From a virus, in IMG/VR virus record IMGVR_UViG_3300043256_000553, positions 1-25,981 of that record: a stretch of 25,981 nucleotides of DNA. One strand, written 5' to 3'. The notes below the pieces were generated by a model. That model saw only the letters and a program-made list of their open reading frames with translations. It searched no databases and was not told the origin of the DNA. Shown here one piece after another: positions 2,230 to 17,826 of the stretch. The number at the start of each line of letters is the position of its first letter. Within the stretch, counting starts at the first letter, position 1. The position numbers and the translations under genes are program-made.

Positions 2230-2364
2230 TCAACCCGTACCCTTGCGTGCGTAGAACTTCTCGTAACTCCATCGGCACGCAGGGTTCGAGCAGGTGAAGC
2301 GCGCGAGTTTCCCCGCGCGCTCCGTCAGCATCACGCTGCCGCATTTCCGGCAGGGTCGTTGCAT
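2230..2364 (-). CDS. Tiny zinc-ribbon protein (44 aa)
   Basis: A very short gene whose ATG shares one base with the TGA stop of the major capsid gene (TGATG), indicating coupled translation. It has C5-x2-C8 and C25-x4-C30, the spacing of a minimal zinc ribbon, in an otherwise basic sequence ending in KFYARKGTG. Such mini zinc ribbons occur next to capsid genes in many phages, but their role is not established. The same frame is open further upstream inside the capsid gene, but the TGATG junction and the position of the cysteines favour the short form. Confidence 0.65.
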   Translation of the reverse strand: MQRPCRKCGSVMLTERAGKLARFTCSNPACRWSYEKFYARKGTG

Positions 2365-4822: not shown

Positions 4823-5259
4823 CAGATCACTCCTATCGGTTTGAGTCGTCCGTCGGGCATCACTGTCGCCTTGTGGTGATTCTCCACCTGCTCGAGCTCA
4901 ATCGCAAGCCGCTTGAGATCCGACTCTTGCGAGTTGAGGATGGAAAGGATGGCATCGAAGGCTAGTACCTTCCCCTGCTCAATCCGCATCTCCGCGGTAT
5001 CTATCGACTTGATCAGTAGGGAGTTAGCCCTGTCCCTCAGCTTCACAACCTCCTGAGCGTAGCCCTTGTAGCCGGGGTGGTTCTGCACCTGCAAAATCTG
5101 TTGGCAGGCCCGCGCAAGAGAGCGCTTGGTCTGGATGTGGTGCTCCATCCGCAAGCGTTCGTGCCGCTCCTGATCCTCGATCGGTGTCTTGAGCGGGTCG
5201 ATCGGCGTCCGGTGATCCAGGAAAGCCGCCATTCCCGGCGGGATGCTGAGACTGGTCAC
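4822..5259 (-). CDS. Helical protein of unknown function (145 aa)
   Basis: It starts at GTG 5259 in a GTGA overlap with the portal stop and ends in a TGATG overlap with the next gene. Residues about 30-130 are strongly helical with heptad-like Leu/Ile spacing (QTKRSLARAC, then a second helix rich in Glu, Leu and Ile), so a coiled-coil bundle is likely. No family is recognised. Proteins of this size and shape directly after the portal are often minor head proteins or assembly factors, but that is inference from position only. Confidence 0.65.
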   Translation of the reverse strand: MTSLSIPPGMAAFLDHRTPIDPLKTPIEDQERHERLRMEHHIQTKRSLARACQQILQVQNHPGYKGYAQEVVKLRDRANSLLIKSIDTAEMRIEQGKVLAFDAILSILNSQESDLKRLAIELEQVENHHKATVMPDGRLKPIGVI

Positions 5260-7616
5260 GAGCCCCCCGGATTCGGTGCGCCCTGCGAGCCTTCGCTCTT
5301 CGCGGCCCCGTCTGCATCAGACGGCATGCCCCCTTCGCGGCGATGATTCGGACTCTGTGGGTCTTGGCCGGGGCCAGCAAAACCAGTGCCACCTTGCGCA
5401 CCGTTTTGCCCTTGCCCCTTCAACGCCATCATCTGGTTCGCCTCCATCAGTGCGCGGCTTTGAACTTCCTGCGCGCGTGCGATCTCCTTCGCATGATCCG
5501 CGTTGTGAGCCACCGCATCCGCAAAAATGGACGGCTCTTCTTGCTCCATCTCTTGCCCGTCTTCACCGTTGAGCCAATCTTCGTGCGCTTCGTAGTGCGT
5601 GACGTGATCGTCTTCCTTGCGAACCGGGGGAACCTTGCCATGCCACCAGAGCTCATGCTCTTCAATCGCCGAAAGAAGCCCGGCTTCCGCCGGATCCAAA
5701 GAGAGGAAGTCAGCAACATCACGGAAGCCAAACCCCTCCCGGAAGATCTTCCCCAGCAAAGCGCGGATCTTGATGACAACGGCTCCCTCTTGTTCATTGA
5801 TCGCCGGAGCACGATCCAAGAGATTGATCAGCTGTTGTGTCTGCACCATCTGCGTTGACAGACGGAAGCTCGCAACCGGGGTGATCATAAACTTCCCGGT
5901 GATATTCTCGGGCCTCACCGTGTACCGATCACGCCAAGCCAACCCCTGTGGTCCCAGCTGATTGATGACACGCGTGCGTGACAAGAACTGCTGATTGTTG
6001 GCCGCCATCTGGCGCAGCATCGGCACAAAGATCTCGTTCTCGAAGTTCTTGATCCCTCCGATCAAGCGCATGTTGGCTTCGTTGGTCTCTGACGTGTGCT
6101 GCGTCGCTGTCTTCGAACCTCCCCCTTGAGGAGACCGCGCCGCCATGAGCGGCGACGTGACACCGTGAGTCTCACGGATCTCTGTTTTGAGATCCCCCAT
6201 GCACTGCAACGCTGCGTCGCTGACCTTCGGGAGAAACAGGGGTTTGATCCCGTCCGCGGATTGCGCGCGAAGGATGAGGCCGGGTTGCGCGATCAACTGA
6301 CCATCCGGCACGTTCGCGCCATCCTCAACAACAAGCATGGGATTCGATTCCAGCTGTGTCGCGGCGTCGTAGAGGTTTCGCTTCGTATCGAGCTCGAAGG
6401 ACAATCGCGCGATCGGCTCCAGAACACCGATGCCGAAGAACTCCTCATGCAGCTTGATGTAGCGCGCCACTTGGTAAGGCTTCTCGCCGTGCCAGTGCGG
6501 GTTCTGCCTCACCACCGCAACACACTTGGCCGAGTTAGGCTCGATCAAGACAAGGTTGCACGGCACCTCTGGCTCACTGGGATCCTCACTGATTCGAAAG
6601 TACCCCCACCAATCGATCAGAGTGAAGTGTGCAATGTGCGAAGCCAGCGAGGCCTGCCGACTGTCGTAGACACCGTAGCTGTACGCCTTCCTCTCCTTGA
6701 ACTCGTCCCCGAAGTTCGCATCGTCATCCCCGGCCCGATCCTTGAGAACATCAAGGTTCTTGAAAATGCCCTTCCGACCGTACTCGATGATCTTGAAGGA
6801 AGGCCACAGGGATCGATCGCTACACCACTCCGCGTCCTGCACGCTGTTGGCTGTCGGTGGAGCCATCAAGTCGAAGATGGAGACGTTTCGAGCACGGTTG
6901 CCGTCGAACACGATCTCCTCTCGCTGAATCTCTCTGCGATTGATCTTCGACCGCCCCGCCTTCGTTTCATCCGGAACACGTTGCGCTCGCGCGTAGCGGA
7001 CGTCCTTGATTTCCTGTTCCCAGGAAGTCTTTTGAGCACAAGTCCCGTAGATACAGAAGTCACGGAGCAAGGTGTCCGCGGTTCGGTGGTAGTCCATCTC
7101 TACCAACTGTTGCTGGCAGAGTCCTTCTTGGTTCTTGGCGGCATCGTCATCGTGCCAATCCTCCCCACGAAACCGGAAGGTTGGCTCTTGATCGAACAAG
7201 GCCTTGAACAACCGAGGATGGATTGACTCGATCGCCTTGAAAGGCTCCGGACTGTGCAGCTGCATCCTCCCGTACTGGAAGGCCGCGATCGTTTCCCCTC
7301 GGTACAGCCGATACAGGATCAGCCACTTGTTCCGAAGGAACTCCATGACGTTGTAGGTGTCACGGACCCCATCCATAACCGCAGCGTACGCGCGTGTCGC
7401 GACCTCGGGATTGCCGGCCATGTTCTCGAAGCCCATCGCCTCCGAGTACAAGCGAGCCTGGAGCTCTGGATCTTGCTGATCATCCGGGCCTTCCTGGTAC
7501 GTCGTGCGCCCAGGAATGGGTTTCGTTCCGTCGCGTGGCGTAACCGACGGGAACCGCGCCTGGGGAGAGCCTTGCCCCAGTCTGCTTGCGTTGCCAAGGC
7601 CCCAGCGGTCACTCAA
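5256..7616 (-). CDS. Portal protein (786 aa)
   Basis: This is the large protein forming the dodecameric DNA gate at one head vertex. The length matches the long portals of P22-like and SU10-like short-tailed phages. It has the usual plan: an N-terminal helical wing (VMEFLRNKWLILYRLYRGET near 90-110), a central region with DWWGYFRI and FGIGVLEPIARLSFELD, a long stem/crown helix region containing TETNEANM and NFENEIFVPMLRQMA, and a low-complexity Gln/Gly/Pro-rich C-terminal tail. The start is an uncommon TTG overlapping the previous stop (TTGA); no in-frame ATG appears for about 60 codons, so coupling probably drives initiation. Neighbours (terminase upstream, scaffold and capsid downstream) fit a portal. 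Confidence is high on context and moderate-high on sequence. Confidence 0.85.
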   Translation of the reverse strand: MSDRWGLGNASRLGQGSPQARFPSVTPRDGTKPIPGRTTYQEGPDDQQDPELQARLYSEAMGFENMAGNPEVATRAYAAVMDGVRDTYNVMEFLRNKWLILYRLYRGETIAAFQYGRMQLHSPEPFKAIESIHPRLFKALFDQEPTFRFRGEDWHDDDAAKNQEGLCQQQLVEMDYHRTADTLLRDFCIYGTCAQKTSWEQEIKDVRYARAQRVPDETKAGRSKINRREIQREEIVFDGNRARNVSIFDLMAPPTANSVQDAEWCSDRSLWPSFKIIEYGRKGIFKNLDVLKDRAGDDDANFGDEFKERKAYSYGVYDSRQASLASHIAHFTLIDWWGYFRISEDPSEPEVPCNLVLIEPNSAKCVAVVRQNPHWHGEKPYQVARYIKLHEEFFGIGVLEPIARLSFELDTKRNLYDAATQLESNPMLVVEDGANVPDGQLIAQPGLILRAQSADGIKPLFLPKVSDAALQCMGDLKTEIRETHGVTSPLMAARSPQGGGSKTATQHTSETNEANMRLIGGIKNFENEIFVPMLRQMAANNQQFLSRTRVINQLGPQGLAWRDRYTVRPENITGKFMITPVASFRLSTQMVQTQQLINLLDRAPAINEQEGAVVIKIRALLGKIFREGFGFRDVADFLSLDPAEAGLLSAIEEHELWWHGKVPPVRKEDDHVTHYEAHEDWLNGEDGQEMEQEEPSIFADAVAHNADHAKEIARAQEVQSRALMEANQMMALKGQGQNGAQGGTGFAGPGQDPQSPNHRREGGMPSDADGAAKSEGSQGAPNPGGS

Positions 7617-7756
7617 AGGTACATCGCCTTTCTCTTGGTCCGCGGTTTAGGCGTGTCAGAGAACTTGGGAACGAGCTTCTTCTTCGGGTTGGGGTGAGGC
7701 CGTTCTAGCCTCGACTTCGTAGCCCGGTCCTGCGCACCGGAGGTTGCTTTGCCCAT
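7613..7756 (-). CDS. Small Lys/Arg-rich protein (47 aa)
   Basis: A short gene with ATG at 7756, four bases after the stop of the 48-aa gene, and a TGA that overlaps the TTG start of the portal. The product is very basic (NPKKKLVPK and KPRTKRKAMYL) with no hydrophobic core. It may bind nucleic acid or acidic head proteins. Translation through this gene probably delivers ribosomes to the weak TTG of the portal. No family recognised. Confidence 0.55.
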   Translation of the reverse strand: MGKATSGAQDRATKSRLERPHPNPKKKLVPKFSDTPKPRTKRKAMYL

Positions 7757-7760
7757 CGGC

Positions 7761-7907
7761 TCACCCTCCCTTGTGGCTCCGGGTCACTGGCTTCTGTCCC
7801 GGCTTCCGGCTCGCGTTGTAGATCTTCGCGGCCTTCGTCTTGCACTTCTTCGAGCTCCCGCCCTTCTTCTTGCACTTGTTCCTGATCGCTACGTACTTCG
7901 CCGGCAC
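7761..7907 (-). CDS. Small Lys-rich two-cysteine protein (48 aa)
   Basis: The frame starting at GTG 7907 has a strong GGGAGG eight bases upstream and reads MPAKYVAIRNKCKKKGG then CKTKAAKIYN, with cysteines C12 and C22. Short basic proteins with this C-KKKG...C-KTKAAKIYN look are familiar in phage structural regions, though their role is unknown. A longer overlapping frame from ATG 7950 gives only a repetitive Glu/Arg peptide and is judged a shadow. Function may be DNA or RNA binding. Confidence 0.55.
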   Translation of the reverse strand: MPAKYVAIRNKCKKKGGSSKKCKTKAAKIYNASRKPGQKPVTRSHKGG

Positions 7908-7937
7908 GTGCACCACCTCCCAGTCCTAGAAGAGTTC

Positions 7938-8726
7938 TCAGGTCTGCCATGGAACCGTCACCCGCGCCTTCGGCGCATCAACCGGGAAGACATCGTAGAT
8001 CGGACCCTTCCACCCCGGCAAGAGGCGGACTCTGCCAGGCCACCGTTTCTCGAGCTCCCCACACCACTCGATCGCGCGCCAGATGTTGTAGGTGGAAGCC
8101 CTCTTCGTAGCCGGGTTCGTGGACCCAAACTCATACGCTGTCCCACTTTGCAGCGTGAATCCCATGAGGTAGATCGGGTCCGCTCCCATGAGCAAACCCC
8201 ACTGCAAGGCGTAGCAAATCGAATTGGCGCCGTAGTGGAATGGCTTGTCTGCCTGATCCACGAAGTAGGGTGGCGCCGCGTTGGGGTGGTACTTGCCGTT
8301 GATCGTCCTCCCCGGCGCGCGGCGTGCATTCTGAATCGGAAACTTGACCACCTTGAGATTGTCCCCGCCGATCGTGCGGATCTGCAGAGACAGAGGCGTC
8401 TTGCCAAACGCCCCGGCACCCAACATGCCCTGGCTCATCAAGACGACCATGGGGGGACCTTTCTGAGAGAGCAAGGTGCGCTCGGTTGTCCAGACGTCTT
8501 TATCGACGATCTGCCAGTACGTCGGTCGTAGGGTCCGAAGAGTCCAGTTTGTTCCGAGGACGGGCTCTCCCCTTGCCTGTTGAAGTCTTGGGTGGTGAGC
8601 CACTCCCGCGGCTCCCCCAAGGATCCAAAGAGCTCTTCCTTTGTGGATGTTTTCAAGCCAACGCGGAGAAGGATCTCTGCCGCGCGGTGCTTGTACGTGT
8701 GCCGCTTCGAAATCTGGTAGGAGCAT
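7938..8726 (-). CDS. DUF115/MptE-like Rossmann-type protein (up to 262 aa)
   Basis: The recognisable domain starts near residue 29 with KGRALWILGG, a Gly-rich nucleotide-binding-type loop. It continues with GTNWTLRTLRPTYWQIVD near 58-75, and ends with GANSICYALQWGLLMGADPI and YLMGF, typical of phage DUF115/MptE-like proteins found beside glycosyltransferases. The chemistry in phages is unproven; relatives act in sugar or pterin nucleotide metabolism. The start is a problem: the only in-frame ATG (8726) lies 289 bases inside the upstream glycosyltransferase frame, and residues 1-25 look like a shadow. A frameshift, a very rare start codon or an indel could explain this. The gene ends just before the ribosome site of the 48-aa gene. 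Confidence 0.7.
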   Translation of the reverse strand: MLLPDFEAAHVQAPRGRDPSPRWLENIHKGRALWILGGAAGVAHHPRLQQARGEPVLGTNWTLRTLRPTYWQIVDKDVWTTERTLLSQKGPPMVVLMSQGMLGAGAFGKTPLSLQIRTIGGDNLKVVKFPIQNARRAPGRTINGKYHPNAAPPYFVDQADKPFHYGANSICYALQWGLLMGADPIYLMGFTLQSGTAYEFGSTNPATKRASTYNIWRAIEWCGELEKRWPGRVRLLPGWKGPIYDVFPVDAPKARVTVPWQT

Positions 8727-9793
8727 TCTTGACCCACCTCTGCAGCTTCGTCAAGGTGATTGAGGTAGTAGAGCACAAGCTCGAGAAAGTGTTCCGGACT
8801 CTCTGCGCGCGGGGCCATCGGGAACAAACGCGCGAGCTCTCCACGCACGTTGTCATTGATCACACACGTCCCACAAGCCGCCATCTCGAAGAACCGAGGG
8901 TTGACGTGTTGCGCCGGCAGGCCATAGACGTTCCAGAATCCTGTACCTCCCCACTCTGCCGGGGGAGTCGTCATCACCTGGAGGCCCGGCCAAGACGGGT
9001 ACCGCGACGCTTTCTTCACTACGAACTGCATCCACTCTGTCTTCCCAATGTGTGGATCTCGATGAACATTGAGACCCACCCCACATGACGCGTACAGATC
9101 GGCGTGAGCATCGAGACCAATCCACCGCCCTTGATGAGCTTTCGGATTGGTACTTTGCCAGTAGCGAATCTCCGTCCCTTCCACCAACTTCTCCACTGGC
9201 TTGAGCCATGGAGTCCGAGGCTTGAGATTCGCATTCCCCAAAAACAAAGCTCGAACTCTGATCTCACGTTGGTCGTACGGAACGAGCTTGAACCGCTCCG
9301 TGTTGACAGCCGGCGGGAGGTAGTAGACCTGATCGCGCGCTCCCTTCGATAGCTTGTGTGCAGCCAAGGTCCCCGGATCCATGGTGAAGATGTAGTCGAA
9401 GCGTGGTGAGTACCGGAGAGTCTCACCACACTCGTAGGGCTCATCGCACAGGTACACCGCTGTCGGAATGCCCCTCCTCTTGAGCTCGTGCTGGAACGTC
9501 TCATTCGCTGCTGCGCGACCATGGTGGCAGAAGACCAAGTCCGGTTCCCATTTATAGATGTGCTGCACCACACTCTTCGCGGTACGGTTGTTGGCAGGCA
9601 CGGCGTAGGGACTCCTCCGATTCAACGCCATGTACTTGATCAGACTAATGTCGAAGACCTTGACTTCACAACCAAGAGCCTTGAATCCCCACTCCCATCC
9701 GTCGTTGAAATCGTCAGAGAACAAAAGGCCAGGCCGGGCCAGAGCAACCTTGGGCACGCCCTCCACACGCTTGCGACGGATCACGGCAGTCAT
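8438..9793 (-). CDS. CgeB-like GT-B glycosyltransferase (451 aa as read)
   Basis: A probable sugar transferase of the CgeB/Glyco_trans_1_2 type. Motifs include a Rossmann start VALARPGLLFSDDF (16-29), DLVFCHHGRA (85-94), an acidic LCDEPYE (115-121), and the family's C-terminal signature HVNPRFFEMAACGTCVIND (296-314), followed by HTYKHRAAEILLRVGL (365-380), where family members usually end. Beyond about residue 383 the frame continues 68 residues with low-complexity sequence overlapping the DUF115-like gene. That tail is probably not a true domain. The ATG overlaps the previous stop by ATGA. The donor and acceptor are unknown. The context suggests a role in a virion, DNA or surface glycan pathway. 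Confidence 0.78.
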   Translation of the reverse strand: MTAVIRRKRVEGVPKVALARPGLLFSDDFNDGWEWGFKALGCEVKVFDISLIKYMALNRRSPYAVPANNRTAKSVVQHIYKWEPDLVFCHHGRAAANETFQHELKRRGIPTAVYLCDEPYECGETLRYSPRFDYIFTMDPGTLAAHKLSKGARDQVYYLPPAVNTERFKLVPYDQREIRVRALFLGNANLKPRTPWLKPVEKLVEGTEIRYWQSTNPKAHQGRWIGLDAHADLYASCGVGLNVHRDPHIGKTEWMQFVVKKASRYPSWPGLQVMTTPPAEWGGTGFWNVYGLPAQHVNPRFFEMAACGTCVINDNVRGELARLFPMAPRAESPEHFLELVLYYLNHLDEAAEVGQECSYQISKRHTYKHRAAEILLRVGLKTSTKEELFGSLGEPREWLTTQDFNRQGESPSSEQTGLFGPYDRRTGRSSIKTSGQPSAPCSLRKVPPWSS

Positions 9794-10458
9794 GCCGTGG
9801 ACATCACGAACTGAGGTGTCACTTCGTCTCGATCTGTAACCTTGACACTGTCATGCAGCGCATTGGGGGACGGGTCCAAAGGCTGCGTGCGTACGGCGGG
9901 ATGAATCCAGAAATGCTCGCCCATCTTGCCGACGTCTCCCTGTACCAAAAACAGCGAATCGTGCGGATGGATCTCCGGCCAGTAGCGAATCGATCCGCCC
10001 TTGATCCGTCGGAACATCGTCAGCCCACGAGTCATCTTGTTGTGGTTTCGTCCTACGTGGTAGGGAGGGTTCTGGCTCCACTTGGCTTCGTGATCGACCG
10101 TCACGCACCGGGCTCTCTGGTCCTGTCGCAGAACGGTCAACAACTTCTCGGCCCACTGATGGTCGTACACACCAAGACAGGGGTGAAAAAAGGCAATGGC
10201 CTTGGCCCGCCCGTACGAAGCTGCGATGTTGCAACAGCGCGTAAAGTAGATGCGCTTCTTGTTCACGAGGAGCGTCGAAGGAACATCTGGATTGCCCTGA
10301 ATCCAACCTCGCAACACGTCCGTCATCTCCCCACCGACGCCATCATTGATCACGGTGAGGCCGAACGGAATCTTGGTGTATTCCACCAAGCGATTCAGGC
10401 CATCAAGAACAACGTAGGGCTCACCCCACGCCGGCAGACACACGTCAACTTCAACCAC
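9790..10458 (-). CDS. GT-A/GT2-like glycosyltransferase without a clear DxD (222 aa)
   Basis: The N-terminus VEVDVCLPAWGEP and VINDG (about 36-40) match the nucleotide-binding start of family 2 glycosyltransferases, and FTRCCNIAASYG (72-83) matches their ArNxG helix. The place where GT2 enzymes carry a metal-binding DxD reads AFFHPCLGVYD (89-99), so the catalytic acidic pair is missing or displaced. The protein may be inactive, metal-independent or use the later Asp. GTG 10458 is preferred: AGGAG lies seven bases upstream and the start overlaps the stop of the zinc protein. A longer frame with TTG at 10494 adds a poly-Arg segment and lacks such a site. It ends by ATGA overlap with the CgeB-like gene. 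Confidence 0.68.
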   Translation of the reverse strand: MVEVDVCLPAWGEPYVVLDGLNRLVEYTKIPFGLTVINDGVGGEMTDVLRGWIQGNPDVPSTLLVNKKRIYFTRCCNIAASYGRAKAIAFFHPCLGVYDHQWAEKLLTVLRQDQRARCVTVDHEAKWSQNPPYHVGRNHNKMTRGLTMFRRIKGGSIRYWPEIHPHDSLFLVQGDVGKMGEHFWIHPAVRTQPLDPSPNALHDSVKVTDRDEVTPQFVMSTA

Positions 10459-10639
10459 TGGCTTTCTCCTGCGCCTTCTTTCCTTCTTCGGCAACCCACG
10501 TCAGATTGCATCTGCGAGAGCACCAAACAAACGTCTGCTGCCCAGCCCGACTCAAAGCTCGAGACCGATTCCGTGGGTATCGAACCACTCGGTTACATCC
10601 AAGGCACCGAAGGTGCACGACTTCGCTTGGGGGTTCCAC
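10451..10639 (-). CDS. Small zinc-finger-like protein (62 aa)
   Basis: It starts at GTG 10639, nine bases after a clear AAGGAG. Cysteines C12-x2-C15 and C40-x3-C44 (RCLGCNR and WCSRRC) suggest one zinc-binding unit separated by a basic, Arg-rich loop, with a Lys/Glu-rich tail. The fold resembles short phage zinc ribbons often linked to nucleic acids, but no family can be named. It overlaps the preceding hypothetical gene by 47 bases and the following glycosyltransferase by eight. Confidence 0.62.
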   Translation of the reverse strand: MEPPSEVVHLRCLGCNRVVRYPRNRSRALSRAGQQTFVWCSRRCNLTWVAEEGKKAQEKASG

Positions 10640-10952
10640 TCTTGACTACTCCTTGGTTTGCCAGCGCGACATCATCCGCCGCCCGCATGCGCGCATGAGG
10701 CGTCGCAGGCACCGCGGCTTCTTCCTGCCCCACAAGTGAGGAGGCCCGTAGTTCTTCTGCCGTCCTTGCCTCCTCCACGTACGTCAAGCCGGAGGTTGTC
10801 GGTCCAGGGGCTTCGGGAACGAACGCACTCTGCGGATTGCTTCCATCTCCACCTGCAGCCTTGAGACCGCGGTTCACGATCATCTCGACTTGATTGAGTA
10901 TGTAGTCGATGTAGGGGCTCTGCCCCAAAACGCCAACTAGGATCGTTTCCAC
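10593..10952 (-). CDS. Hypothetical protein after the terminase (119 aa)
   Basis: The GTG at 10952 overlaps the end of the large terminase by 16 bases, and a GGGAG lies about 12 bases upstream inside a hairpin. The frame remains open upstream to a start at 11027, so the exact start is uncertain. Residues 1-35 contain an amphipathic or mildly hydrophobic helix (TILVGVLGQSPYIDYILNQV). The rest is Ala-, Pro- and Glu-rich and probably disordered, ending SRAPSVPWM. No family is recognised. It may be a small terminase- or portal-associated protein, judged by position only. Confidence 0.5.
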   Translation of the reverse strand: METILVGVLGQSPYIDYILNQVEMIVNRGLKAAGGDGSNPQSAFVPEAPGPTTSGLTYVEEARTAEELRASSLVGQEEAAVPATPHARMRAADDVALANQGVVKSGTPKRSRAPSVPWM

Positions 10953-12631
10953 AGCGAGGGCTGACTCCCTCGCTTGCGGTAGAGATCTTGTTGGCCTTGT
11001 TGCCCAGGGCTTGCGTTGTTTTGCCATAGAGGATCCGTCCCGGCGCGCGGCTGGAGATTCTTGATCATGTCACGCGCATCGTATCTCGCATTCGGGTTGT
11101 ACTTGCCATCCACCAACGACGGCGGCTGAGTCATCGCGACGTAGGGAGTCCAGCTTGCCGGCGGGCCAGGGAAGAGCCAGCGTCCACGCTCGTCCCGCTG
11201 ATCGATGTCCGAGATTGCATCGGGAACATCGTCGTTTGCTGAGAACGGCCACTCCGTCATCTCCTCGAACATCGGTTTCCACTTGCGCATCTGGTCGCGA
11301 AGGGACTGCGCAAAGTAGATCCGACCCTCACGGAAGCGAGGCTCGATCCCGTGAATCCGTGTCATCTTGATCTCATTGCTCCGGCCACCCACCTCCACGA
11401 TGCGCGGGCGGATGAACGTCTTGCGGCGAAGCTCTTCCAGGTAACCTGCGATCAACTCCTTGTGCGTCGTCTTCTCGATCGCCACCGCCTTCGGCTCCCA
11501 GTGACACCACTGATCCCATAGAGCCGCCAACCTCTGCGTCGACTCAGCCGGTTTCCACCGATCGACCAACACGTCATGCACGTACGCGTACCGGTGCGTA
11601 TCCAAGCTCACAACCCAAAACGCCGTTCGATCATTCTGCTCCAGGGCTGAGAACGCGAAGTCCGTCATAATGTAGGTCCAGCACGCTCGAGGGATGTCCT
11701 GGTCCGGGATCACACGGAAGTACTCGGGGAGGAAGATCTGCTCCTCCTCGCTCATCGGCTTGTTGTGGTAGTACGCGTAGAACTGCCGAGAGGGCATGTT
11801 GCGTTTGCGCGACTCCACAAACGCACGCGTGAGTCGGCCGGGGAAGAAGAGGGTCCCTTCCGAATCGATCCACTCGTGACGAGAAATCTGCCAGTCTTTC
11901 TTGGCCTCCGGATCCTTGATGGTCTTGCACCAGAAATCCGCGAAGTGATGGATCGTTCCACACGCCAGCAAACGCGACCCCGGATCCAGCTGCGCCATGA
12001 GCTCGCCGATCCAAGTCTTGACATTCTCAATCGCTTCCGGCGTTTTCGTGTTCTCCTGCGAGATCGGATCGTCAAGCCACCCCATGTCCCAGTGCGCGCC
12101 GGTCTGCACCTCCCCTTCACCGAAGGCAGCAAGGGTCGGATCTTTCAGGTGCGTCATCGTGCGCTGTGCTGAAACGAACCCGGAGATGTAGGACCACGCC
12201 TTGGGATCCTTGTGCACACCGAACCGCTCTTCGAACCAAGGCGACTCGATGATCAACATGACGTTCTTGAGAAACTTGCGCGACTGCCGGCCGGTCTCTG
12301 ATCCGATAAACCCACGGATGTTCGGATTCTTCGCGATCTCCCAACACGCCAATCCCACCGTGAAGACCTGCGACTTGAAAGTCCCCCGCGGCCAAAGAAC
12401 CATCTTGTTCTTGTAGAGAATGACTTCCAGATTCTCCGGGTCTGGGGTTCCTTCCCAATTCAAGATGAACTGTGCACCACGACCATGCGGCTCCCACTGC
12501 GCATCGGGCGCTGCACCGCAGTCGCGAACGAAGTCGAGAAACCCCTCGTCTGACAAGTAGTACTCGCGCTCCTCTTCGATCCGCTGCTCACGGATCTGCG
12601 CCTTCGTCAGAACTGGTTCCGTCGCGGTCAC
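10937..12631 (-). CDS. terL: Terminase large subunit (564 aa)
   Basis: The packaging motor: an ATPase that pumps DNA into the head plus a nuclease that cuts the concatemer. The ATPase part shows a variant Walker A, LWPRGTFKS (79-87; the common GSGK is replaced by GTFK), a Walker B region ending in LDD (186-188) and a coupling motif LACGTIHH (222-229). The RNase H-like nuclease shows acidic residues in IMTDFAFS (D324), AIEKTTHKE (E386) and NDDVPDAISD (D467/D468/D471). The start is GTG 12631, because it overlaps the GT2 stop in the GTGA pattern used across this operon; the frame's upstream extension has no motif. A gene for a glycosyltransferase rather than the small terminase lies directly upstream. 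Confidence 0.9.
   Translation of the reverse strand: MTATEPVLTKAQIREQRIEEEREYYLSDEGFLDFVRDCGAAPDAQWEPHGRGAQFILNWEGTPDPENLEVILYKNKMVLWPRGTFKSQVFTVGLACWEIAKNPNIRGFIGSETGRQSRKFLKNVMLIIESPWFEERFGVHKDPKAWSYISGFVSAQRTMTHLKDPTLAAFGEGEVQTGAHWDMGWLDDPISQENTKTPEAIENVKTWIGELMAQLDPGSRLLACGTIHHFADFWCKTIKDPEAKKDWQISRHEWIDSEGTLFFPGRLTRAFVESRKRNMPSRQFYAYYHNKPMSEEEQIFLPEYFRVIPDQDIPRACWTYIMTDFAFSALEQNDRTAFWVVSLDTHRYAYVHDVLVDRWKPAESTQRLAALWDQWCHWEPKAVAIEKTTHKELIAGYLEELRRKTFIRPRIVEVGGRSNEIKMTRIHGIEPRFREGRIYFAQSLRDQMRKWKPMFEEMTEWPFSANDDVPDAISDIDQRDERGRWLFPGPPASWTPYVAMTQPPSLVDGKYNPNARYDARDMIKNLQPRAGTDPLWQNNASPGQQGQQDLYRKRGSQPSLWKRS
10954..10973 (-). other. 7-bp hairpin at the terminase 3' end
   Basis: A perfect inverted repeat GCGAGGG/CCCTCGC with a 6-base loop lies within the last codons of the terminase gene and ends one base before GTG 10952. 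The GAGGGAG that could serve as ribosome site for the next gene is in its stem. It could couple the following gene's translation to the terminase. No T-run follows, so termination is unlikely. Confidence 0.4.
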
Positions 12632-13362
12632 TGAATTTGCTTCCAAGGGAAGCGGAGCACGATCCGCTCCTTGGTCAAGTACCTGCGAGCCCCCATCCTG
12701 CGCGCTTCTCGAATCTTGCGCAAGTGGAGAGATCGATTGTGAGTGTAGCCCCTGTCCAAACTCATCACGGCCGCATCGGGAATGTGGGCCGTCGAGTAGA
12801 AGTCTGCCCAGCAGTCCTTCCACCAACGAGGCATGATCCCAATGGTGTTGAGAGTGTGGTGCAACATCACGTCGCTAAAGCCTTTATGCCCAACATAGTC
12901 TTCGTCGTAGCCACCCACACGCCAAAAGTCATCGGTGTGGATCAGGTAGATGTTGCAGCAGCCCTCGTCCATTGCCCCCGTCGACATGTGCTTCAAAAGC
13001 ATTCGGTAGCGCCCGCCCGGCGTGATCTGTGGCACGCGTGCAACGACCAACTCCATCACCTCGGCCGGGATGATCATGTCGGGATCGATCATCAGACACC
13101 AACCGTCACGCGCCGCATCCATACCCAGATTGCGAGCTCCTGGTTGGTTCCAAGCCTTGTCCTGCTCAACACGGAAAACCTGCACATCCAAACGCGTCTC
13201 CGGCATCACGAACGGATGCTTCGGTCCCGCATCATCGACCACAATGAAACGCGTGTTCCCCCTCACCTCCACAGAGTAGCTCTCCCACATCTCGATCTGC
13301 TTCGCCATCATCAACGGCTGGTCGTAGCACGCCATGACCAAGCAGAGCCGAGGTCGTATCAC
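12628..13362 (-). CDS. GT2-family glycosyltransferase (244 aa)
   Basis: A GT-A fold sugar transferase. Motifs in order: LVMACYDQP (8-16), IVVDDAG (40-46), the NQPGARNLGMDAA helix (72-84), a metal/nucleotide-sugar DxD as MIDPDM (91-96), and the acceptor-side block VGGYDEDYVGHKGFSDVM (149-166), which fits enzymes with a DED/D catalytic pocket. It would transfer a sugar from a nucleotide donor, with the acceptor unknown. GTG 13362 overlaps the methyltransferase stop by GTGA and gives a clean domain start; residues upstream look like shadow. It ends in a GTGA overlap with the large terminase, so it is tied directly to packaging genes. Confidence 0.82.
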   Translation of the reverse strand: MIRPRLCLVMACYDQPLMMAKQIEMWESYSVEVRGNTRFIVVDDAGPKHPFVMPETRLDVQVFRVEQDKAWNQPGARNLGMDAARDGWCLMIDPDMIIPAEVMELVVARVPQITPGGRYRMLLKHMSTGAMDEGCCNIYLIHTDDFWRVGGYDEDYVGHKGFSDVMLHHTLNTIGIMPRWWKDCWADFYSTAHIPDAAVMSLDRGYTHNRSLHLRKIREARRMGARRYLTKERIVLRFPWKQIQ

Positions 13363-14006
13363 AGGTCCCTCGCGAAGACGTAGCTTCCTACGCTGTCTCG
13401 CCCAAACCGCTCCTCCAGACGGGAACGCTCTAACAACTCCCACCCTTGCTCTTTGAGCCACCCGATCAGCCCCCATTCCGTGAAGTACCACAGGTGCTCA
13501 CGCGGCTTGAAGTGACGACTCCGAAGCACCACTTCCGCGTTCTCGTAGATCGGCGTCGAAATGAAAAGACAGTGTGTCACCCGCGCGATGAGAGCCTTCG
13601 GATTGTTCATGTGCTCGAGGCTGTCCCACAAGGTTACAGCCCGCACCGTCGCGTCAAACGGATCGCGCCAAAGTCCCTTCTCCTTGAGCCATGCGCGCGG
13701 AGAATCGGCCACGTCGTAGCCCTTCGTCTTCTCCATGCCCCGTTCCATGATGAAAGCCCCACTCCCGATCCCAACATCGAGAAGGCCACCATCCCACCAC
13801 GACTCGACAAACTCCACCCGCGACTCGTTGAGACGTTCCCCACGCTTGTTGCGCGAGATGACATCGAAAGCCTCGAAATAGGCGGCCGGATACTCGAACG
13901 GATGTTTCACTGGGAGATGACCGAATCCCTTCTCCGGGAACCACACAAACTCACCAGCACACCGACAGTCACGAAGCCAACGCGTACAGTCCTTGCACGT
14001 CTTCAT
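13359..14006 (-). CDS. SAM-dependent methyltransferase with N-terminal cysteine cluster (215 aa)
   Basis: A class I methyltransferase. Motif I is LLDVGIGSGAF (75-85), followed by an acidic strand end GYDVA (96-100) and a UbiG-like VTLWDSLEHMNNP (124-136). The first 16 residues hold four cysteines (C4, C7, C14, C16), a likely zinc knuckle that is not part of the standard fold. Methyltransferases of this type in sugar clusters often methylate sugars or sugar-linked lipids; no DNA-methylase catalytic motif (NPPY or PC) is seen. It overlaps its neighbours by ATGA upstream and GTGA downstream, so it is made together with the radical SAM enzyme and GT2. Confidence 0.8.
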   Translation of the reverse strand: MKTCKDCTRWLRDCRCAGEFVWFPEKGFGHLPVKHPFEYPAAYFEAFDVISRNKRGERLNESRVEFVESWWDGGLLDVGIGSGAFIMERGMEKTKGYDVADSPRAWLKEKGLWRDPFDATVRAVTLWDSLEHMNNPKALIARVTHCLFISTPIYENAEVVLRSRHFKPREHLWYFTEWGLIGWLKEQGWELLERSRLEERFGRDSVGSYVFARDL

Positions 14007-15394
14007 CGTCGAACAAGCTCCCCGCCAAGACGGTCATGCTGCTGGAACTTGTTCACCTTGGACAAGTGATCTCCCAGATTCACGCGCCAGTACTCACGTG
14101 CGTTGATGTACTTCTTGCTCATGTCGAAGAACGCGTTCTGAATTCGGCGGCCCAGGTTCAAGTGGATCAAGCCCTTCGTCACGACCGGGTAGAGCCATGG
14201 CCAGCGAACCACCGCGGACCAGTACTTGTGCAAGCGCTCAATCTTCTCCTTGTCCCGTAGGTTGGGCACCGAGCACTCATCAAAAAACGTCGCGTTGACA
14301 AGGTAAGTGAGCTCCTCCACCGACTTGACGACACCCTTCTTGACCAAGATGTCTGCCATCACCGTGCCCGGGTACGCCTGCAGGAGCGAACACCAAGACA
14401 GCGTGGGCTTGCATTTGATATTGAAGCGCAAGGTTTCCATCGCGTCCGCAAGCGGGTCATCGACGGGGAGGCCCAGGAGGTTCTGCATTCGGAACTTGAT
14501 CTTGTACTTGTGCAGGAGAGCGACGCCCTTCTCGATGAGCTCGTTGGACTCGCGTCGATCCAACACTTCCTTGCGTGTCTCCTCGTTACCGCTCTCGATC
14601 GCGAAGCTGGCGATATGGATGCCGGCTTGCTTGAGGAGCTTGACCCGATCTTCCGTGATCAGCTTGGGCCGCAGCTGCGCGAAGAAGGGGAACCGATACT
14701 TGCTGTAGAGATCGGTGAAGCGCTCCAACCACTGCATGTCGATGCCGAAAATGTCATCCTGGAACGCAACAAACTTGCCACCCCAAAGCCGAAGTGTCCG
14801 CTCAATATCCTCGACCATGTACTCCGGTGAGTGTTGCCGAACACGCGCCCCCTTCGTCATGTCCTGCCACTCCTTGTTCGAATTGTAGCAGTACGTGCAC
14901 TTGTAGGGGCAGCCGCGCGCCGCAAGGAAGTTGCGAATCAGGTTGTTGCGCACATGAGGAAACCGCACGTTGTAGAAGAGCTCCCGATCCGGCGGCGCCA
15001 AGGCATCCAGATTCACGATGGGTTCCAGATCTACATGGGAGCGCCCGTTCACTGCGTCGATCGTCGCACGCTCTCCATCACCGCGGATGATGATGTCCGC
15101 GTGCTCCTGCCCCGCCTTGGAGAAGAACAAGTAGTGCGGCCCGCCAAAGATTGTCTTCCTTCGCGGCCAGAGCTCCTTGACCCCCGCAGCCACCGCTCCC
15201 CAGCGACCCTCATCCCCTGAAAGGACTTGGAAGGCCACAAAGTCTGCGCCCCAGTTGGCAGAAGTCAGAAGAGCTTGCGACTCAGTACACGCCAACGTCG
15301 CATGCCCGGCCCGCAGCAGCGCCGACGACACGTACTCCATCCCCAAGGGTTCCTGGCTCACGCCGTCATGGGTGACGAAGAGAATGCGCTTCAT
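14003..15394 (-). CDS. B12-binding-type radical SAM enzyme (463 aa)
   Basis: The radical SAM iron-sulfur motif CPYKCTYC provides C162, C166 and C169, preceded by LAARG as in many family members. Residues 1-115 form a cobalamin-binding-like Rossmann domain (MKRILFVTHDGVS, FGGPHYLF, IRGDGERA), although the histidine motif that ligates cobalt is not evident. After the cluster come the expected barrel strands, such as AIESGNEETRKEVL near 267-280. Relatives methylate unreactive carbons or rearrange complex substrates, including sugars and lipids. A B12-type radical SAM gene inside a phage head operon is uncommon. The ATG has only a weak ribosome site, ten bases after the GT9-like gene. Confidence 0.82.
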   Translation of the reverse strand: MKRILFVTHDGVSQEPLGMEYVSSALLRAGHATLACTESQALLTSANWGADFVAFQVLSGDEGRWGAVAAGVKELWPRRKTIFGGPHYLFFSKAGQEHADIIIRGDGERATIDAVNGRSHVDLEPIVNLDALAPPDRELFYNVRFPHVRNNLIRNFLAARGCPYKCTYCYNSNKEWQDMTKGARVRQHSPEYMVEDIERTLRLWGGKFVAFQDDIFGIDMQWLERFTDLYSKYRFPFFAQLRPKLITEDRVKLLKQAGIHIASFAIESGNEETRKEVLDRRESNELIEKGVALLHKYKIKFRMQNLLGLPVDDPLADAMETLRFNIKCKPTLSWCSLLQAYPGTVMADILVKKGVVKSVEELTYLVNATFFDECSVPNLRDKEKIERLHKYWSAVVRWPWLYPVVTKGLIHLNLGRRIQNAFFDMSKKYINAREYWRVNLGDHLSKVNKFQQHDRLGGELVRR

Positions 15395-15404
15395 TCGTCT
15401 AGTC

Positions 15405-16316
15405 TCAGTGCCATGGTGCCGCTACGCCCCGCACCGGTCGCTGCGAACGATCTGTATTCCTTAGCCATTCCATCGCCTCATCCATGTGAAAGTTGGCCAC
15501 GTCGACCGCCTTGTAGATCCCATGCTGATCGCTGGTGTTTCGCTTCTTCGGATCTACCCAGCTTGTCCAGAAGTTCTGATGGAAGTGGTTGTGCCACAGA
15601 AGCAGGGTCGGCGTGCCCAAGTGCTGCGCCAGCATGCCATTTCCGGCGGGGAAGCCGACGAAGGCACGTGCGGTACGGAACAACGCAAACAGATGATCCA
15701 GGTCTGTCTTGCCCGTCAGGTCCACCAACCATTGTCTCTCCTGCAAACTCGCGCCCATCTCAACGTCCCACTCCCGCCCCGTGATGATGATGTCGTGATC
15801 AGGGAATGCACCGTGCAGGTCGAACAGGAATCGATTGACGTTGAAGCGCTTCATCCACTCCGAGTAAAAGCCGTGCCTGCAGAAGAAGACCACGATGAAC
15901 GGACTGCCGTCCATGCCCAACGCGAGCTCGTACTTCGCCTCAGCCGGCGTCCTGTTGACCGTGTAGTTCCAGTTGATCAAGCAGCCCGGCAGCGCTTCCT
16001 CCAACCGGTTGCCCAGCGCCAAGTGCTGGTTGAGAGCGATAACGTAGTCGAACCCGCAGAAGTTCTTCTTCACCATCGGGCTGCCCTTCCCGAACATCTT
16101 GTTGAAGGTGCGGATGTGTCTCTTGTCTTCCCAGAACCCGCCGAAGTCACCAAACGGCAAGCGGCGCAGATAGCCCTCCGTACGCTTCTTCGCCATCCCA
16201 GGTTGCCACACCCAAAACTCAGGCCGGCGTCCACCGAAGAGAGCCTTCTGCATGCTCTCCATCTTGAGCATGATCCAGTGCTGGTCGCCCATCCCCGGAG
16301 GGAGGAGAACCTTCAC
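15405..16316 (-). CDS. GT9-like (heptosyltransferase-type) glycosyltransferase (303 aa)
   Basis: A GT-B type protein resembling ADP-heptose:LPS heptosyltransferases. Residues 1-14 give KVLLPPGMGDQHW (the family's G-x-GD start), the central part has PFIVVFFCRHGFYSEW (139-154), and the donor-binding signature appears as AFVGFPAGNGMLAQHLGTP (218-236), followed by LLLWHNHF. In the family the donor pocket binds a nucleotide sugar. GTG 16316 is selected because it overlaps the upstream stop by GTGA and starts exactly at the domain. The radical SAM gene follows after ten bases. The acceptor is unknown. Confidence 0.75.
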   Translation of the reverse strand: MKVLLPPGMGDQHWIMLKMESMQKALFGGRRPEFWVWQPGMAKKRTEGYLRRLPFGDFGGFWEDKRHIRTFNKMFGKGSPMVKKNFCGFDYVIALNQHLALGNRLEEALPGCLINWNYTVNRTPAEAKYELALGMDGSPFIVVFFCRHGFYSEWMKRFNVNRFLFDLHGAFPDHDIIITGREWDVEMGASLQERQWLVDLTGKTDLDHLFALFRTARAFVGFPAGNGMLAQHLGTPTLLLWHNHFHQNFWTSWVDPKKRNTSDQHGIYKAVDVANFHMDEAMEWLRNTDRSQRPVRGVAAPWH

Positions 16317-17092
16317 ACGGCTGCCCAAAGCTCTTCCGCCTTTTCGATCACCAACTCTACCGACGGTTGCCATGCAGGAATCAACCTATGTGGCACCCTG
16401 AACGGGTTCCACGTTTTGCCGTAGCGAATGACGTCCTTGGGATTGGGAGACCAAGCGACGACGGGACAACCGCAGAGGAAGGCCAGGACCATGGGGCCGG
16501 AGCTCGGACCGATGACAAGCTCCGCGCGGCGCAGAATGCCCATCTGCTCACCGAGAGAGAGAGAGCGGCAGTCCTCGCCACCGATCGCCCACGCAGCCTC
16601 TTCGGTGCCGATACACGCGACGTCAAAACAGCGACCACTCAGGTTGGACATCAACCCACGCCAAGCATCCTCCGGCCAGTTGCGCTCCGCGTTCCACTGG
16701 CTCGCGCGCTGGTGCACGACGATTTTGTAGGTCTTGCCCGGTTCGCCCTCGAACAGAATGTGTTTTTCTGGCGCGTTCATCCGAGGCACAGGATCCCACA
16801 CCACGTCAAGTTTGTGCGGGAGCAACAGCTGGTAGCCGCGAAACTCCAACATGGGCGGCGTGTAGCCGACCCGACGCTTGCCATCCAAGATGTACTGGCA
16901 GTCGGGTCGGCCCATGATCGAGGGGATCGTGTAGTACTGCGCGAAGTCCTTGTAGATCGCGTCGTGCCCGAGCCGGCCGCACACGACCATCTTGTCGACG
17001 TCGTCTCCAGCCGCGAGCTCGCGTAGGTGGCTCTGCCAACAGAAGAGCTCCCACCCGAACTCCCCAACCCAAGGACCCGCGAGGATGTTCAT
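16313..17092 (-). CDS. Second GT9-like glycosyltransferase (259 aa)
   Basis: It opens with NILAGPWVGEFGWELFCWQ (2-20), a signature seen in a group of GT-B-fold proteins. The second half has IVVHQRASQWNAERNWP (124-140) and the donor-site signature VIGPSSGPMVLAFLCGCPVV (193-212), both typical of GT9-like enzymes. It is shorter than cellular heptosyltransferases. The ATG overlaps the small-terminase stop by ATGA, and its own stop overlaps the next GT9-like gene by GTGA. Two GT9-like proteins in tandem may act in sequence on one glycan or may pair. The sugar and acceptor are unknown. Confidence 0.77.
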   Translation of the reverse strand: MNILAGPWVGEFGWELFCWQSHLRELAAGDDVDKMVVCGRLGHDAIYKDFAQYYTIPSIMGRPDCQYILDGKRRVGYTPPMLEFRGYQLLLPHKLDVVWDPVPRMNAPEKHILFEGEPGKTYKIVVHQRASQWNAERNWPEDAWRGLMSNLSGRCFDVACIGTEEAAWAIGGEDCRSLSLGEQMGILRRAELVIGPSSGPMVLAFLCGCPVVAWSPNPKDVIRYGKTWNPFRVPHRLIPAWQPSVELVIEKAEELWAAV

Positions 17093-17826
17093 GGTGCTAC
17101 CACCACGTCCTTTCCTCCCTCGCCCTCCTGGGTTGCTTCGGGGCCGGATCCCGTGAGCGACAACTTTTTCACTTCCTGTTGTGCAAGTCTCTTCTTCTCC
17201 CTGACCGAAAGAATCGCATCAAGCTCTGTCTGTGCAGCCTCATCAAGTGACAGGGTATGCGTCACCTCTTGGCGAAAGACCGCTCTCTCGATGATGCCGA
17301 AGTCTTGCAAGGATGCGGTGTAGTCCTTCTGAATTCGCCATGCCAACGCCAGCTGTCCGCGTTGCACAGCTTGCTCGTAGAGCTCGTCGCGCCGCGCAGT
17401 AAGTTCGCCAACCACGGTCGACGCGCGAATGCCGGTTACCGTCTTCCCGAGCTCGTCCGCGTACGCGGCCCACGTGTCACGGACCACCGTCTCTGTGATG
17501 TTGAGTGCCACCGCGATGGCCGGCGGGGAGTGTCCCTTGTTCATCAGGGCACAGACCAGCGCACCCTTCTGCGTCTTGTGCAAACCGTCGAACCACTTGG
17601 CTTGGTCGGTCTGCACTTCCATGCGTTGCGCAAGGAACTTGCCCACTTCCCCCAACGACCGCTCTTCAAGGATGTCGTGGGCTTGGTGCGACTTCGCGAT
17701 TAAGCCGGAGGACACAACCGCTTCGCACATTGCGGCGGTTGACTTGAAGCCGGCGTGTTTCGCAGCAGCCTCAAGCCTGACGATCACCTGCTCATCAAAC
17801 AGGGAGCTTTTGGTTCGGCGGGCCAT
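17089..17826 (-). CDS. terS: Probable terminase small subunit (245 aa)
   Basis: The protein has a helix-turn-helix near residues 98-122 (HSPPAIAVALNITETVVRDTW), as in small terminases that recognise the packaging site. Long helices follow (ASTVVGELTARRDELYEQAV, then a Glu/Ala-rich stretch), suited to ring oligomerisation, and a Gly/Glu-rich tail ends the protein. It is the best packaging-site recogniser in the window but is separated from the large terminase by five sugar/radical genes. The ATG lies 13 bases after GGGAG and overlaps the end of the Tat-signal gene by 32 bases. A transcription factor is the main alternative. Confidence 0.6.
   Translation of the reverse strand: MARRTKSSLFDEQVIVRLEAAAKHAGFKSTAAMCEAVVSSGLIAKSHQAHDILEERSLGEVGKFLAQRMEVQTDQAKWFDGLHKTQKGALVCALMNKGHSPPAIAVALNITETVVRDTWAAYADELGKTVTGIRASTVVGELTARRDELYEQAVQRGQLALAWRIQKDYTASLQDFGIIERAVFRQEVTHTLSLDEAAQTELDAILSVREKKRLAQQEVKKLSLTGSGPEATQEGEGGKDVVVAP

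Follow-up and report, generated by a model that had tools for sequence, protein, structure and literature searches.

A conserved pair of predicted glycosyltransferases between the large terminase and portal genes of uncultured phages, with a variable gene cassette upstream of the terminase

Organization of the locus

The window, that is, the whole 25,981-nucleotide stretch of viral DNA analysed here (IMG/VR record IMGVR_UViG_3300043256_000553), carries a head and packaging module in which genes for putative sugar enzymes are interspersed with those of the probable small terminase (terS), the large terminase (terL) and the portal protein (Table 1). The complete genome of the window's phage is probably represented by a near-identical record of ~48.6 kb, which carries a terminal repeat of 127 nt. 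Among the 29 ORFs scanned only that of the major capsid protein matched SU10_MCP (PF17236, 7e-68). By Pfam, PHROGs and fold matches we recovered on the minus strand, and in the order described, each enzyme that an earlier note had named between terS, terL and portal; these are however eight enzymes and not a nine-gene cluster. The terL-portal interval also holds two small proteins, the larger of which gave no match in PHROGs. Four-base overlaps, said to join nearly all genes, were found at 5 of the 12 junctions from terS to portal, or at 6 if the second GT9-like gene starts at GTG 16316, thus the wording was too strong. The small terminase keeps its "probable" on account of position and of conservation upstream of terL in relatives (26-37% identity), whereas Pfam, PHROGs and NCBIfam gave no terminase match, the sole Pfam signal being a sub-threshold HTH.

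Table 1. Features of the locus, listed from terS towards the capsid gene.
Feature	Position	Strand	Length	Basis and remarks
Probable terS	17089..17826	-	245 aa	Position and conservation upstream of terL in relatives
GT9-like glycosyltransferase a	16313..17092	-	259 aa	PF01075 under cut-off
GT9-like glycosyltransferase b	15405..16373	-	322 aa	PF01075 under cut-off; alternative start GTG at 16316, then 4-nt overlap
Radical-SAM enzyme, weak B12-binding domain	14003..15394	-	463 aa	PF04055
SAM-dependent methyltransferase	13359..14006	-	215 aa	PF13489, phrog_6564
GT2 glycosyltransferase	12628..13362	-	244 aa from GTG	PF10111 over cut-off
Large terminase, terL	10937..12631	-	564 aa from GTG	phrog_38 1.6e-62
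Small protein, no assigned function	10593..11027	-	144 aa	Relatives at 29-47% in some contigs
GT-A-fold glycosyltransferase, divergent	9790..10494	-	234 aa	Predicted structure and Foldseek
CgeB-like GT-B glycosyltransferase	8438..9793	-	451 aa	PF13524 1.2e-18, DUF3880 1.4e-6
Maf/DUF115/GT42-fold protein	7938..8726	-	262 aa	AF2 model and VIA-align
Dual-frame overlap, CgeB tail / DUF115-like start	8438..8726	-	289 nt
Small protein, no assigned function	7705..7950	-	81 aa	ORF; 47% partial match in L128 and L147
Portal protein	5256..7616	-	786 aa	phrog_332 3e-21, phrog_1216 7e-18
Major capsid protein	2364..3386	-	340 aa	phrog_1328 5e-68; one possible glycan acceptor

The enzymes between terL and portal

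The CgeB-like protein belongs to the GT-B glycosyltransferases by PF13524 (67.9 bits, cut-off 25), with DUF3880 also over its cut-off; a search of its profile against solved structures by sequence found none. The GT-A-fold protein had no match in Pfam, and its AF2 model (pLDDT 85.7) matched in Foldseek the mannosyltransferase 6yv7 (E=6e-8, TM 0.67-0.68) as well as many polypeptide GalNAc-transferases. The AF2 model of the DUF115-like protein (pLDDT 85.5) is closest in predicted fold to the Maf glycosyltransferase 5mu5 (VIA-align Z=12.4, rmsd 3.8, 195 aligned) and to the sialyltransferases Cst-I (2p2v, Z=11.6) and CstII (1ro8, Z=11.4); Foldseek alone gave nothing under E=0.001, with CstII best at 0.0084. 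A membrane-type hydrophobic stretch was seen in none of the cluster enzymes, the highest mean over 19 residues being 1.51.

The order terL-CgeB-DUF115-portal was recovered in all 34 eligible contigs retrieved through terL or portal; the CgeB and DUF115 genes precede portal in 40/40 eligible contigs found by the capsid protein. The terL/portal set comprises 50 contigs, after removal of three with terL matches of only 22-25% (L037, L038 and L039), of duplicate loci of one contig and of the window's own phage. Of the 63 capsid loci, we set aside six at 30-35% and that of the window's own phage, which left 56 near relatives; 40 of the 56 had the at least 6.5 kb upstream that made them eligible. 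The 34, 40 and 56 sets share contigs, and the contigs are related to each other; at ~10% terL divergence, 35 of 55 sequences (window included) remain. The best 80 of 88 CgeB relatives added 33 new contigs, giving a wider set of 83, but since this addition favours contigs bearing CgeB, the claim of a core rests on the terL/portal and capsid sets. The pair shows ~50% identity across eligible relatives, and its distances correlate with those of terL (Spearman 0.81 for CgeB and 0.78 for DUF115) much as do those of portal (0.84), capsid (0.89) and terS (0.75), the GT2 gene reaching only 0.40. Judged from these comparisons, the CgeB/DUF115 pair is a fixed core that diverges in step with terL and the head genes, and the placing of sugar enzymes between terL and portal is a fixed trait of the lineage, present in every contig able to show it. 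Because gene order is conserved across dozens of divergent contigs, the cluster is not a chance arrangement. A frameshift interrupts the CgeB gene in L019, likely an assembly error since it is whole in the close relative L018; in L028 the GT2 gene lies in two pieces in different frames.

The end of the CgeB gene and the start of the DUF115-like gene overlap by 190-292 nt in 80/80 contigs, and the two frames differ in 47/47 contigs checked. This length runs from the start homologous to that of the window to the first stop, hence an open frame is built into it, and the evidence lies instead in the near-constant position of the stop and in testing for selection. Codon-position and synonymous-shuffle tests support selection in both frames, the shuffle figure treating related sequences as independent. 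The earlier note made no mention of this overlap.

Proteins fixed in the head module might no longer be catalytic and might instead use their glycosyltransferase fold for a structural or assembly role, as the strong divergence of the GT-A protein (13-24% identity between 19 relatives and the window's protein) and the failure of Pfam to recognise the DUF115-like protein in 32/33 members (MptE-like PF01973 hits one, E=0.026) would allow. The CgeB-like protein, however, keeps a strong glycosyltransferase match and many polar residues invariant across 19 members, and genes for sugar tailoring adjoin, so that we consider such a loss very unlikely.

The variable terS-terL cassette

The two GT9-like proteins reach 19.5 bits (a, E=6.6e-4) and 19.0 bits (b, E=9.6e-4) against the PF01075 cut-off of 22 and are thus not counted as members of the GT9 heptosyltransferase family; we call them GT9-like because these E-values suggest kinship. 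In NCBIfam, protein a matched the autotransporter O-heptosyltransferase model TIGR04414 far under cut-off (E=2.6e-4), and a PDB search gave no match at E≤1; protein b weakly matched models of RfaQ and heptosyltransferase III and, in the PDB, TibC (E=0.16). The methyltransferase is recognised over cut-off by PF13489 (1e-7) and by phrog_6564 (5e-58).

The radical-SAM enzyme matches PF04055 at 6e-15 (56.2 bits, cut-off 29.5), with the motif CxxxCxxC at C162/C166/C169 kept in both aligned sequences, and its B12-binding domain is a weak match (E=2.7e-4, 21.2 bits, cut-off 32.1). Its best named models, HpnJ in NCBIfam and AprD4 in the PDB (E=1.4e-6), both belong to enzymes acting on sugar moieties and resemble it in having a radical-SAM core and, as far as its sub-cut-off match suggests, a B12-binding-type N-terminus; it differs in falling far short of the HpnJ equivalog (TIGR03471, 63.8 bits, cut-off 577.6). 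Scanning viral contigs with the single sequences of terL and of this enzyme gave two loci each, one being the window's own phage, and profile scans were therefore used. The radical-SAM profile found 178 relatives (79 loci listed), of which those at 63-65% identity sit in a second phage lineage (L040 and L004). There the neighbours are GT9, GmhA-like, HddA-like and nucleotidyltransferase genes of heptose type, to which one contig adds metK, and the sugar genes follow what read as head genes. Apart from the window's own phage (L003), the other listed loci had at most 30% identity and were set aside. In genome contigs the radical-SAM pair retrieved two loci at 31-32%, both in metagenome-assembled genomes; one (L157), by reading of the locus, holds several radical-SAM genes with GT2- and methyltransferase-like genes, and no sugar-gene context was seen at the other (L156).

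Across the lineage the terS-terL interval is a variable cassette. A GT2 match upstream of terL is present in 31/33 contigs of the terL/portal set and 33/45 of the wider set, and methyltransferases are the commonest recognisable genes of the region in relatives. The 64 cassette-region ORFs of relatives include 12 Methyltransf_23, 2 FkbM and one each of sulfotransferase, GT17, RfbT and rhamnosyl O-methyltransferase; since there are also 3 HNH endonucleases and 2 C5-cytosine methylases, and many ORFs outside the sugar and methyl families, the cassette is not devoted exclusively to glycan tailoring. In 8 of the 27 relatives that span terS-terL (contigs with terS detected), the gap, measured between match ends and not gene ends, is only 335-611 nt, the 611-nt gap of L149 holding one ORF. 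Thus, of the splitting of the packaging genes by sugar genes described in the earlier note, the terL-portal half is fixed and the terS-terL half is variable, and relatives without sugar genes, its proposed counter-evidence, were encountered in part for terS-terL and not for terL-portal.

This variability, together with the presence of the radical-SAM gene in 0/83 related contigs (27 of them spanning terS-terL), would suit a cluster that is passing cargo, a moron without any tie to assembly. Cargo status fits at most the radical-SAM/GT9 set, and the core pair, retained in all eligible relatives and diverging with the head genes, makes it quite improbable as an account of the whole.

Proposed function

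The earlier note suggested a complete pathway building a glycan on capsid, DNA or host surface. Pfam scans covering 48 of the 53 ORFs called in the probably complete genome recognised no gene for nucleotide-sugar synthesis, and completeness is therefore not supported. Nor did these scans recognise an enzyme of base hypermodification, be it base-hydroxymethylating, TET-like or other, although an unfamiliar one could escape them, and DNA is therefore an unlikely acceptor. Glycosylation of hypermodified virion DNA ahead of packaging would agree with the neighbouring packaging genes, and phage DNA glycosyltransferases exist (Pyle 2024, as cited in a passage of PMC12619734). The C5-cytosine methylases of relatives make simple methylation, and overall we regard this explanation as highly improbable.

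The host surface is a possible acceptor. The enzymes could remodel a host-surface glycan late in infection, leading to receptor masking, to avoidance of re-adsorption of progeny to debris or to superinfection exclusion. The host surface is a frequent target of phage glycosyltransferases, Pfam names GT9 as a family of LPS heptosyltransferases, and RfbT and rhamnosyl O-methyltransferase, families that tailor O-antigen and related glycans, have one match each among the cassette-region ORFs. On the other hand, no cluster protein looks membrane-bound, no flippase or lipid-carrier enzyme was recognised, and every eligible relative keeps the core pair within its head module, whereas host-surface genes are usually accessory in phages. 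We consider this explanation rather unlikely, and favour the virion as acceptor since the enzymes are soluble and lie in the late module.

The best reading, to which we give about an even chance, is that a virion protein is glycosylated in the cytosol late in infection, the outer caps being swappable. The late operon, so termed from gene order, would encode the cytosolic enzymes for this, which would act while heads are made and filled. In this scheme the DUF115/Maf-like and CgeB-like (GT-B) enzymes, joined by the more divergent GT-A, would place and extend a short sugar chain drawing on host nucleotide sugars, whereupon the swappable terS-terL cassette, in the window two GT9-like enzymes, a GT2, a methyltransferase and a radical-SAM enzyme, would add and tailor outer sugars. 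The last of these probably deoxygenates, rearranges or C-methylates a sugar. Exchange of the cassette would give the particle a different outer chemistry, much as surface antigens vary. The target of Maf is a protein, flagellin, and the predicted folds of the DUF115-like protein, near Maf and sialyltransferases, and of the GT-A protein, near GalNAc-transferases, agree with a protein acceptor, although a fold match does not in itself show activity. Against this reading count the missing recognition of nucleotide-sugar synthesis genes, the sub-cut-off GT9 matches, the want of a Foldseek match under E=0.001 for the DUF115-like model, the cassette-region ORFs of relatives that fall outside glycan tailoring, and the fact that the same enzymes could serve a host-surface glycan.

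In a stronger and unlikely version, modification would be an obligatory assembly step: the CgeB-like and Maf-fold enzymes, joined by ~289 shared nt, would act ahead of packaging on a prohead protein such as portal or capsid; the cassette would set a clade-specific, antigen-like outer glycan, in the window including a radical-SAM-edited sugar.

If the favoured reading is right, protein glycosylation belongs to head building, and is no accessory, in a widespread group of uncultured phages, with a modular cassette swapping the outermost chemistry. This would provide a compact genetic system for probing the role of phage sugar coats and a new place to seek radical-SAM sugar chemistry. Furthermore, two glycosyltransferase genes would have almost 100 codons of DNA in common, in different frames, across a divergent family.

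Comparison with known systems

The Maf and GT42 sialyltransferases (DUF115, MptE-like) share the predicted fold of the DUF115-like protein at 12% identity in the alignments, and differ in that the window's protein sits among phage head genes. Among phages, tf (Krylovvirus) and phiM5 have a related capsid protein (30% and 32%) and the same order terL-portal-scaffold-capsid, but in tf terL adjoins portal and in phiM5 just a putative peptidase lies between, with no sugar genes annotated there. The Manatee Spring phages ctKR88 and ct2t2046, with related capsid proteins (32-35%), carry their own glycosyltransferase and/or methyltransferase genes in or beside the late module; these however lie after capsid or before terminase and have no convincing similarity to the window's cluster enzymes, and ct2t2046, as phiM5 and tf, has no sugar enzymes between terL and portal. 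Pelagibacter phage HTVC023P, with the best-covered terL match and a long terS-terL gap, has one 201-aa gene between terL and portal without a Pfam match; Pfam recognised no sugar enzyme in 3 of its 7 terS-terL genes and the gene after terL. Among the matches listed, a literature search gave no account of terL-portal glycosyltransferases, which is weak evidence of absence.

According to passages in PMC12363180 and PMC12619734, phage-encoded enzymes glycosylate virions in mycobacteriophages, namely Che8, Corndog and Myrna (Freeman 2023, through these passages). The window likewise has phage-encoded glycosyltransferases among genes that would be late by their order, and a role on virion proteins is here proposed. 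Its CgeB-like and radical-SAM proteins had no tblastn match in 50,697 phage records. In contrast to the mycobacteriophage systems, the enzymes here hold a fixed place between terL and portal, with an overlap between two of their genes and an additional methyl/radical-SAM cassette.

Results

The window is an IMG/VR virus record of 25,981 bases that matches IMGVR_UViG_3300037247_001476 at 99.995-100%. The latter (48,719 bases) has a 127-base terminal repeat and so probably represents this phage's entire genome of about 48.6 kb, circularly mapped. The capsid protein matches SU10_MCP. Podoviruses such as tf are among its cultured relatives at about 30%, and on this kinship we take the phage to be short-tailed. 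Mean identity in relatives was far higher for the capsid protein (0.80, n=19) than for portal (0.57, n=30), CgeB (0.55, n=35) or DUF115 (0.51, n=33). At locus L008, outside the window, a short replication-region ORF repeats 15 residues (FDVGTGNREDLLDII) of the capsid N-terminal arm, with 47 nt at 91% identity to the capsid gene; a decoy, a regulator or a recombination trace are candidate readings.

Features of the window in minus-strand gene order, followed by other ORFs and by loci outside the window
Feature	Position	Strand
Probable terS	17089-17826	minus
GT9a	16313-17092	minus
GT9b	15405-16373	minus
Radical SAM	14003-15394	minus
Methyltransferase	13359-14006	minus
GT2	12628-13362	minus
terL	10937-12631	minus
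144-aa unknown		minus
GT-A-fold protein		minus
CgeB-like	8438-9793	minus
DUF115-like	7938-8726	minus
CgeB/DUF115 overlap	8438-8726	minus
81-aa unknown		minus
Portal		minus
145-aa unknown		minus
Scaffold-like (labelled by gene position)		minus
Capsid	2364-3386	minus
First ORF with Tat-like start	19602-19937	
Second ORF with Tat-like start	17795-18265	
Lipoprotein-like ORF	18160-18441	
ORF with capsid-arm copy	L008:7539-7733	
Sugar and methyl ORFs of L255	6219-7013, 12432-14084, 13900-14637	

The enzyme labels of the earlier note hold in substance, as judged from Pfam results and predicted folds. The GT2, methyltransferase, radical-SAM and CgeB-like proteins passed Pfam cut-offs and the GT9-like pair scored just below. 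For two proteins lacking a Pfam match (234 aa and 262 aa), structures were predicted from family alignments. The former has a predicted GT-A fold (Foldseek E=6e-8 versus a mannosyltransferase), and the model of the latter matches the Maf glycosyltransferase (Z 12.4), the sialyltransferases Cst-I (Z 11.6) and CstII (Z 11.4), and also HPPK of M. jannaschii (Z 11.1). Foldseek alone gave CstII at E=0.008 and no match under 0.001 for the 262-aa model.

The presence of sugar genes among terS, terL and portal was confirmed, and it is not a freak of one phage. When IMG/VR was scanned with terL and portal profiles, 50 distinct contigs other than the window's own phage were recovered (47-66% identity in terL, 42-53% in portal), and CgeB and DUF115 lay between the two genes in all 34 contigs holding both. 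A capsid-protein scan, whose outcome is independent of the sugar genes, returned 56 near relatives (69-87%), 40 of which have at least 6.5 kb upstream; the order CgeB, DUF115, portal was found in 40/40. The two contig sets overlap heavily. With 33 further contigs contributed by a CgeB scan (83 in total), the pair was placed between terL and portal in 56 of the 56 contigs with both. Pairwise distances of CgeB and DUF115 followed those of terL (Spearman 0.81 and 0.78; none of 500 permutations as high), as did those of portal (0.84), capsid (0.89) and terS (0.75), while GT2 distances tracked terL less well (0.40; 2/500 permutations as high). From its fixed position in all eligible contigs and its distances following terL, we conclude that the pair belongs to the core of the head module and has mostly been inherited together with it.

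The CgeB-like gene overlaps, at its 3' end, the 5' end of the DUF115-like gene, and 289 nt are read in two frames. This overlap is present in all 80 contigs with both genes, at lengths of 190 (4 contigs), 280 (3), 283 (2), 286 (14), 289 (51) and 292 nt (6), and the frame offset was the same in 47/47 contigs checked. In the 289-nt form (30 divergent members), entropy at DUF115-frame third codon positions was 0.91 bits within the overlap; it was 1.35 bits downstream (28 members) and 1.36 bits in the CgeB stretch directly upstream. When the DUF115 protein was recoded with synonymous codons, only 19-20% of trials on average preserved an open CgeB frame, yet the position of the CgeB stop hardly changes across the relatives. 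Mean identity of the CgeB frame was 60% in the first half of the overlap and 46% in the second, above the 50% and 39% of the unused third frame. From the low third-position entropy, the retained stop and the excess identity over the third frame, we conclude that selection acts on both frames, with the clearer signal in the first half of the overlap.

The content of the terS-terL interval varies. The gap, measured between matches, is 335-611 nt in 8 of the 27 contigs with both genes, enough for one small gene at most, and 1.7-4.8 kb in the others. We surveyed 64 ORFs from 23 relatives, taken from the interval or, where terS was not in view, from upstream of terL. Methyltransferases were the commonest match (Methyltransf_23 in 12, overlapped by related models), followed by HNH endonuclease (3), FkbM (2), C5-cytosine methylase (2) and single matches to sulfotransferase, GT17, GT9, RfbT and rhamnosyl-O-methyltransferase; many ORFs match no family, and Radical_SAM is absent from the 24 families listed. 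Window-like cassette genes among the 83 contigs were GT9a-like (5), GT9b-like (2) and methyltransferase-like (2), and a radical-SAM gene occurred in none of the 83, most of which do not span the interval. The interval thus looks like a variable hotspot in which glycan-tailoring genes are common.

Upstream of terS, two window ORFs begin with twin-arginine (Tat) signal-like sequences (SRRGFL), the second from an internal start at residue 35. PF10518 matched one of 29 ORFs scanned (0.0069), the scan not specifying which, and a similar start before terS was seen in one locus (L015) of 27 relatives searched. To our knowledge, Tat export of phage-encoded proteins would be out of the ordinary. A short lipoprotein-like ORF nearby (MKYLILLLLLCSCSG) is possibly a lysis (spanin-type) protein.

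Scans found close relatives of the radical-SAM protein (63-65%) at only two other loci, L004 and L040, on contigs of 58.7 and 59.3 kb from another phage lineage; the window portal has no match in the whole L004 record or in the 21-kb locus of L040. In L004, three glycosyltransferases, one a clear GT9, precede the radical-SAM gene, which is followed by metK, methyltransferases, HddA-like and GmhA-like proteins, a GT2-type protein and a nucleotidyltransferase. The metK product (methionine adenosyltransferase) passes the NCBIfam cut-off, and the HddA and GmhA matches stay under theirs. We read these sugar genes as putatively covering part of the needs of a nucleotide-heptose pathway. The genes preceding the cluster look like head genes, their sole family match being Phage_Mu_Gp36, under cut-off. 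Read by eye, L040 has the same gene order, with metK not seen. The two loci mark a second lineage of phages, whose large sugar cluster includes HddA-like kinase, GmhA-like isomerase and nucleotidyltransferase. The nearest named models of the window protein are HpnJ and AprD4, which act on sugar moieties. Together with the heptose-type neighbours in L004 and L040, this suggests that the radical-SAM enzyme edits a sugar, perhaps a heptose.

Discussion

The earlier note proposed that the cluster may build a glycan on capsid, DNA or host surface. This is partly supported, in that the terL-portal pair is lineage-wide; the terS-terL content is variable. All cluster enzymes look soluble from their sequences, which makes a cytosolic acceptor likely. 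A virion protein is our first choice, because the genes are integrated in the packaging operon and, of the core proteins, the one whose fold is clearest is similar to Maf, an enzyme that glycosylates flagellin; modification of the host surface is the main rival. Action on DNA is unlikely, since Pfam recognised no base-hypermodification enzyme in 48 of the 53 called ORFs (a 1282-aa ORF in part; portal, the 144-aa protein and a helicase were searched with PHROGs instead, two small ORFs with neither). With a virion protein as acceptor, the enzymes would glycosylate it in the cytosol using sugar donors supplied by the host, their genes being tied into the packaging operon. Such a role would parallel that in mycobacteriophages, where, according to two reports, phage enzymes glycosylate capsid and tail tube (PMC12363180, PMC12619734).

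Unlike in the window lineage, terL adjoins portal in phages tf and ct2t2046, and the two genes of phiM5 flank a putative peptidase. Two uncultured Manatee Spring phages (ctKR88 and ct2t2046; capsid 32-35%) carry sugar and methyl genes elsewhere in or near the late module. In L255, a locus of a distant capsid relative (32%), reading by eye found ORFs resembling a methyltransferase, between terL and portal, and, after capsid, a GT-B enzyme and a CMP-sugar synthetase. Sugar and methyl genes thus recur in the head modules of such phages. Among the phages compared, the order terL-CgeB-DUF115-portal was observed in the window lineage only. Within our knowledge and the literature searched, a lineage-wide, overlapped pair of putative glycosyltransferases fixed between terL and portal appears to be new, as does the apparent variable hotspot between terS and terL that accompanies it.
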